Shown piece by piece: positions 1-64,000 of a DNA stretch of 64,000 nucleotides. The notes beneath the pieces were generated by a model, which worked only from the letters and a program-made list of their open reading frames with translations, was not told where the DNA came from and made no database searches. Location of the stretch: contig CP126204.1 in the NCBI GenBank assembly GCA_030272155.1, positions 124,001-188,000 on the forward strand. The letters are read 5' to 3'. Position numbers and translations under genes: made by a program. How positions within the stretch are numbered: position 1 is the first letter of the stretch; each line of letters starts with the position of its first letter. The stretch comes from Tetradesmus obliquus (taxonomy: Eukaryota > Chlorophyta > Chlorophyceae > Sphaeropleales > Scenedesmaceae).

Positions 1-61
1 TGACTCATTTCACCGCTTACACCGCTCATGCTGTCACTGTGACTTTGCTGTCACCGTGCAG

Positions 62-3000
62 GCGGCGCTCAGAGCGGGCGCGCTGCTGCCGCTGAGAAGC
101 AGCTGGAGCGCATGAAGGCGGAGGGGCTGATTGAAAAGCCGTTTGTGCCCAAGCGGCGCAGCTTCACCTTCCCGCCTGTGGAAAAGATGGGCGCCAACGT
201 GGTGGAGATCAAGGTGGGTGTTGACCTAGGAGGCATCAGGTGCATGCAAGCATGCTATAGAAGCAATTAAACAATTTGCGATCTAACGTGTTTTTGTTAC
301 GTTTTGGGTGGTGTGTGTGGAAGGGGCGGCGGGAAAATGTTATTATGTGGTAGCATGCGCATGTGCATCCTGGCGCTGCATGGTGCATGCTGAGTGTACT
401 GCCAATGCACGGGGTTGCAGATGCAGTGCCATGGCCATGCCTGCCTCCTGAGTGGTGTGGCATGAGCTGAACAGCGCTGGCTGCACAGCAAAACCCCACA
501 ATCCTGACACATCCGCTTTTACCCACCCCCCCCCCCCCCCCCCCAGGGCCTGAGCCACGGCTACAACAACCGGCTGCTGTTCAAGGACGTGGACCTGGAG
601 ATAGGCCAGGGCGAGCGCATCGCCATCATAGGGCCCAATGGGTGAGCACAGGACACAAGACACGGCATGCAGGAGTGTGTGGGGCCAACACAGCAAGAGC
701 AGCACTTGAGTGCGCTGTGCTGCCTGCCGCTGCATTGGCGCCTGCTTCAAGCTTGCTGTTCATTACAATGCGGGTGTCAGCTGCCGCTCCGCATATCCAT
801 TGCTACGCCTTGCGTGCCAACTGCGACCCTGCCGTGTGCCTGCTGTGCTGCTGCTGCTGCTGCCGCTGCAGTGCTGGCAAGTCCACGCTGCTGCGGCTGA
901 TCATGGGACGGGAGCAGCCGCTGAGGGGCACGGTGAGGCGCGGCAGCAGCAGCAACAGCAGCAGCAGTTGGCTGTTCAGTCATGTGCTGGTGCAGTGATG
1001 GACTCCGCAGGAACAGCCCTGGCCACGGCTGCCGGCAGCTACATTGGCGCTGCTCATTGAGCGCTGCTGCAGAGCAGCCTTGCACACTCGTTGCGCGCTT
1101 GTGCTTCTGGTGCCAACCTGCCAGCAAATCCTTTGTTCCACACACAGACACCTTTCTATTCACACTGCACCACTGCTGCGTCAGCGCGTTACCATCGCTG
1201 CATCACCAACACCCTCAGCGGAGTAGCAGCTCGCTGGGCTAGTGTACAGCTAGCGCCTGAGGCATGTTTCCAGCCCTGACATGTCTTGTCTTGTATTGTA
1301 TTGCATTGCATCCCCCCCCCCCCCTGCTCCAGGTGCGGCTGGGCGCGCACAACATCGTGCCCAACTACTTTGAGCAGAACCAGGCAGAGGCGCTGGACCT
1401 CAACATGAGCGTGCTGGACACGTTAGTGACAAGCGCGCCTGACGCCAAGATCAACGACCTGAAGCAGCTGCTGGGCCGCATGCTGTTCTCAGGCAACGCC
1501 ATGGACAAGAAGGTGCGCGGGTGCTGCTGTTTTGGGCATATGTTCAGGCCAGGGGGGAAGAAGGGGGGTAGGGGGGCTTGTATAGTGCTGCATGCTGGGC
1601 TGTGGCAAATCCATGGACAAGGAGGTGCGCGGCTGCTGCGCTTTGAGGGGTACCTTTTTTCTGGGCGGGGGGGGGGGGGGGGGGGGGCAGAGGAGGGGCG
1701 GGAATGCCAGGAAGCTTTACTTGCTTTGCGTTGATGTGTGCTGGCTCCACATGCTGCATGGCTGCTGTGCCTCTGGCGGTGCCATGAACAGAAGGTGCAG
1801 CGGGTGTTGATGTCGTTGCGGCAGGGGGAAGGGAGGGCTGTCGGGGCTGTCATGTAGCCTGTGAAGCGCTGTCGTGGGCCTGTGAGTGCGTTTGGCATGC
1901 ATTGCCGCCCGCCAAGAGCAGTGCCTGTGCTGCTGCTGCTATTCTCACATTCACCATGGTTGCTGCCGCTGCCCTGCCATATGCGCTCAGGTGAAGGTGC
2001 TGTCTGGTGGTGAGAAGGCGCGCCTGGCCCTGGCCAAGTTCATGTGCACACAGGTGAGGCGGCAGCAGCAGCGGCAGCAGCAGCAGTAGCAGCAGCATTA
2101 GCAGCAGCAGCAGCAGCAGCCCTGCTTGCAGTGACCCTGTGCTGGCTGTGTCCAGCTGGCGGCAGCTGGCCAGCCTGGCACACCAGCAGCTTGCTGCCTG
2201 CTGATGCTGCGCAACACAACAGGCTGCAGCGCCACACAACCGCTTGCTCTCCTCTTTCTCCCTTGCCTTCTAAACCCTAAACCCTGCCTAACCCTGAAAC
2301 CCTACCCTGGACCCTGAACCCTGCCTCTTAAACCCCAGGGCACACTGCTGGTGCTTGATGAGCCCACCAACCACTTGGACATCCCCAGCAAGGAGACGCT
2401 TGAAGAGGCCATCCGCTGCTTTGAGGGAGCAGTCATCGCCGTCAGCCACGACCGATACTTCCTCAAGCGCATCGCCACGCGCGTGCTGCTGGTGGGTGCC
2501 AGGGTCGAGGTATTTAGGTTGCAGTTTAGGGTTAGGGTTTACCCAAATCCTGTCAGCCACAGTTGATGTTTCCTCAAGTCCATCGCCATGCGCGTGCTGT
2601 TGGTGGGTGTGGGGTTGTGTGCAGATCAATCGTGTGGTTGCTGAATCAGGGTCTGGCACGTGGGTTAAAACTCCCATTGGCAGGCTGTTTGGGACCACTG
2701 TGATGTGCGTTTGTTGTCGTCATGATCTATGTTTGGTACACTGCTGCAGGCCGAGGACCGCCAGCTGAAGGACTTCCAGGGCGACTACGAGTACTACCTC
2801 TGAGCCTGCTTACATGCACCTGCAGGCACTCTGTCCCTCTTCTAACCCCTGGCTGCGTGAAATGGCCGTTTTCTTTACACCGTCAACACACAGGCTGCGC
2901 CATCTCCTGTGATGCTCACCCATTGCTGCACTTCCCTGCTATTGCTGCTGTTGCTGCAGGCCGAGGACCGCCAGCTGAAGGACTTCCAGGGCGACTACGA

Positions 3001-63600: not shown

Positions 63601-64000
63601 ATCGCTGGTGCCGTGGGCAACTACAACGCCCACATGGTGGCCTACCCAGATGTGGACTGGCAGGGCGTGGCTGAGGGCTTCGTGGCGCGGCTGGGGCTGC
63701 AGTTCAACCCCTACGTGACACAGGTGGGCGGTTGGGGACGCGTTTTGTGAAGACAGTTAGCTCACTTCACCTTTTTGTGGCTTTGTGGCGCGCGGCTGGG
63801 GCTGCAGTTCAGCCGCTACGTGACACAGGTGGGTTTTGTAGATTTTGTTATGTGGACTGGCAGGGCGTGGCTGAGGGCTTTGTGACGCGGCTGGGGCTGC
63901 AGTTCAACCCCTACGTGACACAGGTGGGCGGCTTTATTGGCTTTTTGATGTAGACTGGCAGGGTGAGGCTGAAGGCTTTGTGGCGCGGCTGCGGCTCACT
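60614..64000 (+). CDS. purB/ADSL: adenylosuccinate lyase, plastid-type, 3' end outside window
   Basis: Catalyses two steps of purine synthesis: SAICAR to AICAR and adenylosuccinate to AMP, each with release of fumarate. Exons 60614-60787, 60888-60946, 61399-61513, 61842-61928, 62587-62769, 62955-63119, 63574-63723, all in phase, giving 311 codons so far. The leader ([20 protein letters not shown], Ser/Arg/Gln-rich) suggests plastid import; a second Met at 60737-60739 starts the mature-like part. Core: [116 protein letters not shown] and [11 protein letters not shown]. The flexible signature loop and C-terminus lie beyond the edge. Start choice between 60614 and 60737 is uncertain. Confidence 0.92.
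61560..61645 (+). repeat. echo of the adenylosuccinate lyase exon 3 end plus donor
   Basis: CTGCAGCAGCCGGCAGCCGT, CCCGCAGGTGCGGG at about 61600-61636 repeats CTGCAGCAGCTGGCAGCCAT, CCCGCAGGTGAGGC at about 61486-61520. The preceding 20 nt are also related (GTAGAAGTTGCCTGC / GTGGAGGTGGCCTGG). Confidence 0.9.
62000..62262 (+). repeat. three echoes of the adenylosuccinate lyase exon 4 end
   Basis: The exon edge (about 61895-61945: GGCCGCCAGCTTCAGCGTGG, CTGACGCGCAGGAGGTGAGG) recurs at about 62003-62060 (GGCCGCCAATCTCAGCGTGA), 62104-62170 (TCCTTCAGCGTGGCTGG, GCTGACGCGCAGGGAGGCGAG) and, faintly, 62216-62262 (CTGCCAATTTCGGCGTGGAT). Only the first echo keeps a doubtful donor. Decay rises with distance. 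Confidence 0.85.
62440..62530 (+). repeat. echo of the adenylosuccinate lyase exon 5 start plus acceptor
   Basis: 62452-62522 repeats 62583-62653 (offset 131): GCAG acceptor, then [14 protein letters not shown], with AKNVLKQHH against VEYVLKQRF. Both are possible 3' splice sites; only the downstream copy continues into the conserved exon. Confidence 0.94.
63441..63515 (+). repeat. echo of the adenylosuccinate lyase exon 7 start
   Basis: It encodes [16 protein letters not shown] after GCGCAGGGGCTGCC, against [16 protein letters not shown] in the true exon (63574 on). It lies about 125 nt upstream, with an AG at the matching place. Confidence 0.9.
63778..64000 (+). repeat. three echoes of the adenylosuccinate lyase exon 7 end, running off the window
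   Basis: The exon end (63650-63730) recurs at about 63780-63832, 63852-63929 (almost perfect: GTGGACTGGCAGGGCGTGGC through CCTACGTGACACAGGTGGGC) and 63953-64000 (cut by the edge). Two of the three keep the CAG/GTGGG donor. Confidence 0.95.

Follow-up and report, generated by a model that had tools for sequence, protein, structure and literature searches.

The DNA analysed here, referred to as the window, is a stretch of 64,000 nucleotides (nt) of the alga Tetradesmus obliquus (C14:124001-188000, in an assembly of 104.66 Mb and 17 contigs of 3–11 Mb), which carries a DBP10 gene on the minus strand and an adenylosuccinate lyase (ADSL) gene on the plus strand, together with other genes named in an initial annotation. 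Introns of these genes contain partial copies of the adjoining exon edges, each made up of about 25–110 nt of exon and the splice signal next to it. Our analysis confirmed that such exon-edge copies are real and widespread: 80 local duplicate pairs were found in the window as compared to 0, 0 and 0 in three local dinucleotide shuffles, and a survey of the window and 29 further 10-kb stretches (290 kb; 354 kb and 30 sources altogether) yielded 86 motif-supported junction-type pairs, spread over 19 of the 30 sources.

Genes and exon-edge copies in the window

The exons of ADSL were set by homologues, and the query built from the window exons is 90% identical to the Tetradesmus obliquus protein OEZ85_004193 over 88% of the length. 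For DBP10, peptide conservation defined the exons; over its first 363 residues the resulting chain matches solved DDX54 as a single alignment block of equal length and without repeats, and the DBP10 C-terminal domain was detected in the chain. These two names given in the initial annotation are thus supported by homology, whereas ABC-F, USP-like and EXECUTER are unconfirmed, neither single exons nor intron-bearing frames giving a Pfam match when used as queries for them. A self-trained gene finder was dropped for counting because its training shifted towards GCA repeats and it took the two copies of a pair for exons alike. Period-3 repeats of the GCA type are very abundant throughout the window and misled the self-training; the output was used only for choosing the DBP10 stretches to be translated.

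In both genes, where the exons rest on homology, donor copies lie after the real donors and acceptor copies before the real acceptors, as had been described initially, and 12 of the 19 introns hold an exon-edge copy. Among the 18 pairs of DBP10, 12 have one copy that reaches an exon, 6 are intronic and in none are both copies exonic; with ADSL included, 15 of 21 pairs reach an exon (at 13 distinct exon edges), 6 are intronic and 0 exon-internal. Three of the six intronic pairs link two copies of one series and one touches a junction. Accordingly, 15 junction pairs stand against 2–3 independent intron-internal ones, the expected junction fraction being 0.41–0.43 for a 113-nt unit placed randomly. 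The excess over random placement therefore exists as counted, but it is no proof of targeting, since duplicates that contain exon sequence stay detectable longer and the slower decay of the exon half inflates the count.

The DBP10 copies are all on the minus strand. Acceptor copies are found at 33946–34015 (97% identical to the real edge at 33831–33900, offset 115), at 38888–38944 (98%, real edge 38776–38832, offset 112), before the real edge 40999–41030 at 41100–41131 (88%, offset 101), and twice at one edge, where copy 1 (38088–38137) is 92% identical to 37954–38003 and copy 2 (38190–38238) 94% identical to 37953–38001. Donor copies follow the real donors 37553–37592 (at 37333–37372, 95%, offset 220), 39262–39303 (at 39149–39190, 95%, offset 113, with the spacer 39191–39261 being single-copy in the genome) and 40904–40931 (at 40680–40707, 96%, offset 224). 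In addition, 36377–36474 is a copy located after the real edge 36521–36618 (82%, offset 144), and the exon edge 33233–33280 has one copy at 33355–33402 (85%) and another at 33469–33506.

In ADSL, on the plus strand, a donor copy at 61580–61629 follows the real donor 61467–61516 (86%, offset 113), and acceptor copies precede the real edges 62580–62650 (at 62449–62519, 87%, offset 131) and 63586–63627 (at 63460–63501, 88%, offset 126). The exon ending near 63724 is followed by donor copies at 63790, 63850 and 63947, that is 63790–63833 (95% identical to 63685–63728), 63850–63931 (98% identical to 63650–63731) and the partial copy 63947–63996. The suggestion that identity falls with distance in some series found mixed support, as the ADSL copy at 63790 is 95% identical over 44 nt and that at 63850 98% over 82 nt, the corresponding values for the DBP10 copies at 38088 and 38190 being 92% and 94%.

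Further copies lie on the plus strand in genes known by the names of the initial annotation. An intronic acceptor copy (AG and about 50 nt of exon start) at 2742–2799 is separated by a 152-nt spacer from the real acceptor and exon start at 2952–3009, which belong to the unconfirmed ABC-F-like gene; the perfect match of 58/58 nt quoted for this pair is exact and abrupt at both edges. The same intron holds a donor-side copy (2552–2595) of 2441–2484 with 80% identity. The reported donor series 50124/50277/50446/50574 is present in the window, with copy 1 of the real donor 50138–50203 at 50277–50342 (92%) and more copies at 50446–50516 and 50574–50611.

Between 51463 and 51769 the last approximately nine codons and the stop codon of a gene occur in three copies whose end, 4 nt beyond the stop codon, is not accounted for by a splice site: the region 51463–51495 recurs at 51622–51654 on the plus strand (33/33 nt) and again at 51739–51769. 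As a sign of a mechanism acting on coding sequence only, such a stop-codon edge is confined to this single series.

Extent of the copies, block edges and splice signals

Pairs in the window were searched for as ungapped local duplicates with a score of at least 18 and an offset of 20–800, low complexity being masked. Junction calls are based on splice motifs, and pairs with the junction within 12 nt of the block end were termed junction-type. The motif-called pairs total 129, of which the window contributes 21; 19 of the 56 donor and 24 of the 73 acceptor calls lie more than 12 nt inside the block and are probably in part spurious. At a score of at least 20, pairs of some kind were present in 18 of the 20 other stretches fetched first, with up to 28 per 10 kb, as compared to 0 of 20 shuffles, part of these pairs being ordinary noncoding arrays (e.g. 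in stretch L016). If the surveyed DNA is representative, 86 pairs per 354 kb would extrapolate to the order of 25,000 genome-wide. One 10-kb stretch, L031 (C13:3500001-3510000), holds 25 of the 129 pairs, some of its acceptor blocks being 108/108 identical at a spacing of 148 nt; it may carry a P-type ATPase gene.

The offsets of junction-type pairs peak at 100–135 nt, which accounts for 46 of the 85 pairs with an offset of up to 200 nt. All local duplicate pairs of the window and stretches L001–L020 taken together show a peak at 100–130 nt with smaller humps near 220–270 and 340 nt, the preferred unit being about 115 nt.

The most similar pairs inspected have abrupt edges on both sides with an unrelated spacer between the copies, and the edges are related to the splice sites. 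Strong donor motifs in 116 pairs were located 49 times at the 3' end of the block (4 nt outside to 8 nt inside) as compared to 11 times at the 5' end. Of 37 donor-type pairs with at least 90% identity, 23 have the junction 0–8 nt inside the block and 14 at 12–85 nt; the latter, some of which are wrong-strand calls (33831) or lie in true tandem arrays (L014), were kept in the 37. When pairs with at least 78% identity are considered, the junction is within 8 nt of the block end in 34/56 donor-type and 37/73 acceptor-type pairs. At the exon-interior edge of the copies no splice site was seen in the cases inspected.

The splice signals themselves are retained. The GT is kept in the copy in 24 of the 29 pairs with a strong real donor, and the pyrimidine content of the tract is 0.679 in copied and 0.676 in real acceptors (n=21 each), as compared to 0.489 for all CAG and 0.579 for CAG passing the score. 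The values for copied and real acceptors were obtained without a pyrimidine requirement on the copy. An earlier comparison (0.650 and 0.667 vs 0.483), for which 18 acceptor and 24 donor pairs were taken from a set of 91 pairs, had been biased, both copies of an acceptor pair having been admitted on a pyrimidine-dependent score. Judged by sequence, the copies thus resemble competing splice sites, as the initial annotation had it.

Probable tandem origin and the discordance of exon and intron halves

Several observations point towards tandem duplication. Of 139 gapped pairs, 40 have a spacing of at most 5 nt (in 95 it exceeds 15 nt), and stretch L008 contains a true tandem array, read by eye, in which five units with a period of 86 nt each comprise an intron tail and an exon start. 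Similarity of the intron flanks was tested in 74 of the 129 pairs, candidate junctions more than 12 nt inside the block being handicapped in this test. The mean z-score was 3.10 for the matched flank, –0.82 for the reversed one and 0.81 for the next segment, with z>3 in 25/74, 0/74 and 9/74 pairs, respectively. As shared pyrimidine tracts can inflate the shuffle z-score of acceptor flanks, flanks from other loci were added as a control: the matched flank ranks on average at percentile 0.711 among these in 37 donor pairs and 0.772 in 47 acceptor pairs (null 0.5), and is in the top 5% in 31 of 84 pairs (13 donor, 18 acceptor). The intron flanks of the copies are therefore weakly homologous on average, and together with the tandem array, the adjacent pairs and the offset peak this makes a tandem duplication that included a piece of intron the likely origin.

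Spacers do not appear to be mobile. All five that were tested occur once in the genome in a search that skips very common words (in one case the query included the copied exon edge as well, and this part was found at its two expected positions), and an origin from a mobile element or by intron transposition was rejected for these five. The copied blocks of the 91 pairs range from 28 to 117 nt instead of having the fixed short length of a target-site duplication.

Simple duplication followed by decay makes a prediction about the two halves of a copy: divergence should be about 1.5 times as high in the intron half as in the exon half. We compared the halves in 84 of the 129 pairs, namely those with the junction no more than 12 nt inside the block and a spacer of at least 35 nt. 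In 24 of these the pair can be aligned through the intron half (z>4), and the median identities of 0.904 for the exon and 0.840 for the intron half are near the ratio expected if one exon copy is constrained. In 39 other pairs, however, the intron z-score is at most 2 despite a median exon identity of 0.919. Exon identity and intron z-score are not correlated (Spearman –0.11, p 0.33), and 31 of the 84 pairs are below the 80th percentile of the flanks from other loci, 15 of these being among the 36 pairs with an exon identity of at least 0.93. The latter do not stand above the rest in this ranking, their flank percentile being 0.730 vs 0.694 for donors and 0.718 vs 0.806 for acceptors. Among simulated duplicates matched to the real pairs in length, only 1% had z<3 at 12% substitutions plus indels, as compared to 62% of the real pairs; z of at most 2 was reached by none of these and, at 40% substitutions with heavy indels, by 23%, the real value being 48%. 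The simulation and the missing correlation suggest that in a large share of the pairs the exon half has been preserved in, or brought back to, a much younger state than the sequence around it.

Codon positions were analysed in 36 of the 91 pairs, leaving aside those with the junction more than 12 nt inside, with strong flank homology or with an unclear frame. Mismatches are distributed 24:16:60 over the three positions and comprise 57 synonymous and 41 nonsynonymous changes and 2 stops, the random synonymous share being 0.286. The nonsynonymous changes and stops indicate that the copies accept amino-acid changes.

The best account, to which we would give an even chance, combines tandem duplication, survivorship, fast intron decay and a resetting of the exon half by gene conversion. 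Short tandem duplications, mostly with offsets of 100–135 nt, would be frequent in genes of this lineage, and those spanning a splice junction would tend to survive, because the old protein continues to be made if splicing takes the first donor or the last acceptor. The second copy would thereby turn into intron, in agreement with the order seen in DBP10 and ADSL. Its intron half would decay fast by substitutions and indels, whereas the exon half would stay recognisable longer, partly through purifying selection on one partner, and in a large share of pairs gene conversion might rewrite it with the real exon as donor. Conversion would be limited to the exon half as the sole stretch similar enough to recombine. 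The outcome would be introns that consist partly of decayed duplicates, in which the exon edges are nearly identical to the real ones and the additional splice sites look sound.

There are, however, several findings that speak against this account. The third-position excess of 24:16:60 goes beyond the 29:26:45 roughly expected when one copy is constrained and the other free, so that both copies may still have been coding when some of the divergence came about. In 48 pairs no direct sign of gene conversion was obtained from the clustering of mismatches, which is modest and partly due to codon periodicity (neighbours within 3 nt 0.442 vs 0.336, 0/500 shuffles), and the longest identical run was reached by 22/500 shuffles; clustering was too weak to be used as proof of conversion. 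Moreover, an edge 0–8 nt into the intron is sharper than that of a random conversion tract, and the young pairs 2742, 33831, 39149, L004:4838, L015:5418 and L018:2627 have no spacer homology (z of at most 2.1) within 500 nt on either side. In the same test within 500 nt, 8 of 21 pairs showed one-sided homology. The concerted-evolution pattern itself, i.e. exon halves that are 92% identical where the intron halves have lost clear similarity (39/84), derives the age solely from the intron half, and spacers unrelated at birth would look alike. A mature messenger RNA or complementary DNA as template for the resetting was considered and is unlikely, as identity extends through up to 8 intron bases.

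These points bear on the alternatives. One of them is junction-spanning tandem duplication, as proposed in the initial annotation, followed by ordinary decay, with the exon halves faring better only because selection acts on one partner. Much of it holds: duplication is recurrent, leaves one usable junction and places the extra copy in the intron, and it accounts for the order, the offsets, the tandem arrays and the residual flank homology as well as for the 24 pairs that align at the expected ratio. It is not sufficient alone and, as the whole explanation, unlikely, because 39 of 84 pairs are discordant, exon and intron similarity are uncorrelated and the simulation gives 0–1% of such cases at matching divergence. 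Unlikely, too, is a templated copying anchored at the junction, in which a repair, replication or pre-mRNA-templated event pastes the exon edge and splice signal 50–150 nt away, the spacer being unrelated from the start. The residual spacer homology on average disagrees with it, as do the true tandem arrays found at sites of this type, and each copied acceptor is preceded by a strong pyrimidine tract of its own, which would not be expected if the edge were pasted in at random. It does agree with the abrupt edges, with the intron-side edge 0–8 nt past the donor in 23 of the 37 pairs, with the single-copy spacers (5/5) and with spacers that lack homology in a number of very young pairs, and the sharp boundary and this absence keep it alive. 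Its boldest form is a genome-wide process tied to junctions that writes the exon edge and splice signal into the adjacent intron with a boundary 0–8 nt from the splice site and later keeps them in register, so that introns grow by synchronised decoy junctions; this we regard as rather doubtful.

An exchange between divergent alleles or homeologues, which could have happened by unequal crossing over or be an artefact of an assembly joining two haplotypes, would explain together why the exon edge is conserved, why both copies have splice signals and why the changes are biased towards synonymous ones and third positions. We consider it quite unlikely in view of the series of 3–5 copies, the preferred offset of 100–135 nt and spacers that are single in the assembly, and the third-position divergence, estimated at roughly 9%, is low for introns that cannot be aligned. 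That the copies are functional alternative exon edges under selection would fit the kept splice signals and some synonymous excess (57/100), yet it is very improbable. Offsets are not enriched for multiples of 3 (remainders 0:1:2 = 44:50:35), the copies contain nonsynonymous changes and stops, their exon-interior edges lack a splice site in the inspected cases, and solved relatives can be aligned with the first 363 residues of DBP10 when the copies are left out. In the cases inspected the copies are also not whole exons with both splice sites, as would be the case for tandem or mutually exclusive exons; one whole-exon-like tandem case exists (L005:1746-1971).

Relation to known systems and further repeats

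Tandem duplication is already well known in intron evolution. Short tandem duplications in genes which duplicate splice signals and leave the protein unchanged have been described for potato RdRp (PMC4974935) and reviewed (PMC3443670); the potato paper additionally contains one 83-bp tandem duplication located within an intron (PMC4974935). Shared with the alga is the short within-gene duplication that includes splice signals; in the type treated in PMC4974935 and PMC3443670, however, a new intron results from the duplication of an exonic AGGT segment that supplies both splice sites, whereas existing junctions are duplicated in the alga, the DBP10 and ADSL copies containing an existing donor or acceptor. 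Internal duplications are common in eukaryotic genes and can create introns (Gao and Lynch 2009, as cited in PMC4974935), the alga differing by the high density, the offsets of 100–135 nt, the spanning of junctions and the discordant halves. Rogers and Bendich 2025 (PMC11782384) have reported short direct repeats near splice sites (4–30 bp, mean 11.4), which are interpreted as scars of insertions. They have the position at exon/intron borders in common with the algal copies, which are longer (about 25–110 nt), repeat one border, occur in series and have single-copy spacers. Introners (PMC9860276) likewise build introns by recurrent copying, but the alga has no shared element, all five spacers tested being single-copy. 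CST-Pol alpha-primase (PMC8355091) is a known maker of small tandem duplications at DNA breaks and would be a candidate source of the algal units of about 115 nt.

A description of recurrent exon-edge copying in introns was not found in searches of the open-licence PMC literature. Among five algae tabulated together (PMC5966456), Tetradesmus obliquus has the greatest mean intron length, 462 bp, which is compatible with intron growth but no proof of it. With regard to the origin of long introns and the handling of good decoys by the spliceosome, it is of significance that one ordinary genome provides many natural cases of a similar second exon edge and splice site near the real one, in which splice-site choice, intron growth and short-tract conversion become directly testable.

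Other repeats were noted as well. Arrays of a higher order, which differ from the exon-edge pairs in being 94–99% identical over long blocks, are present in L016:1-1800 and 4100-5800, their offsets being about 275/555 and 340/690 bp. A perfect 31-bp tandem array of 6.2 copies at 10181–10373 of the window overlaps the end of a minus-strand reading frame, and diverged coding repeats of about 180 bp are located at 11235–12074, also on the minus strand, in a frame that matches a spondin-like TSP1 domain.

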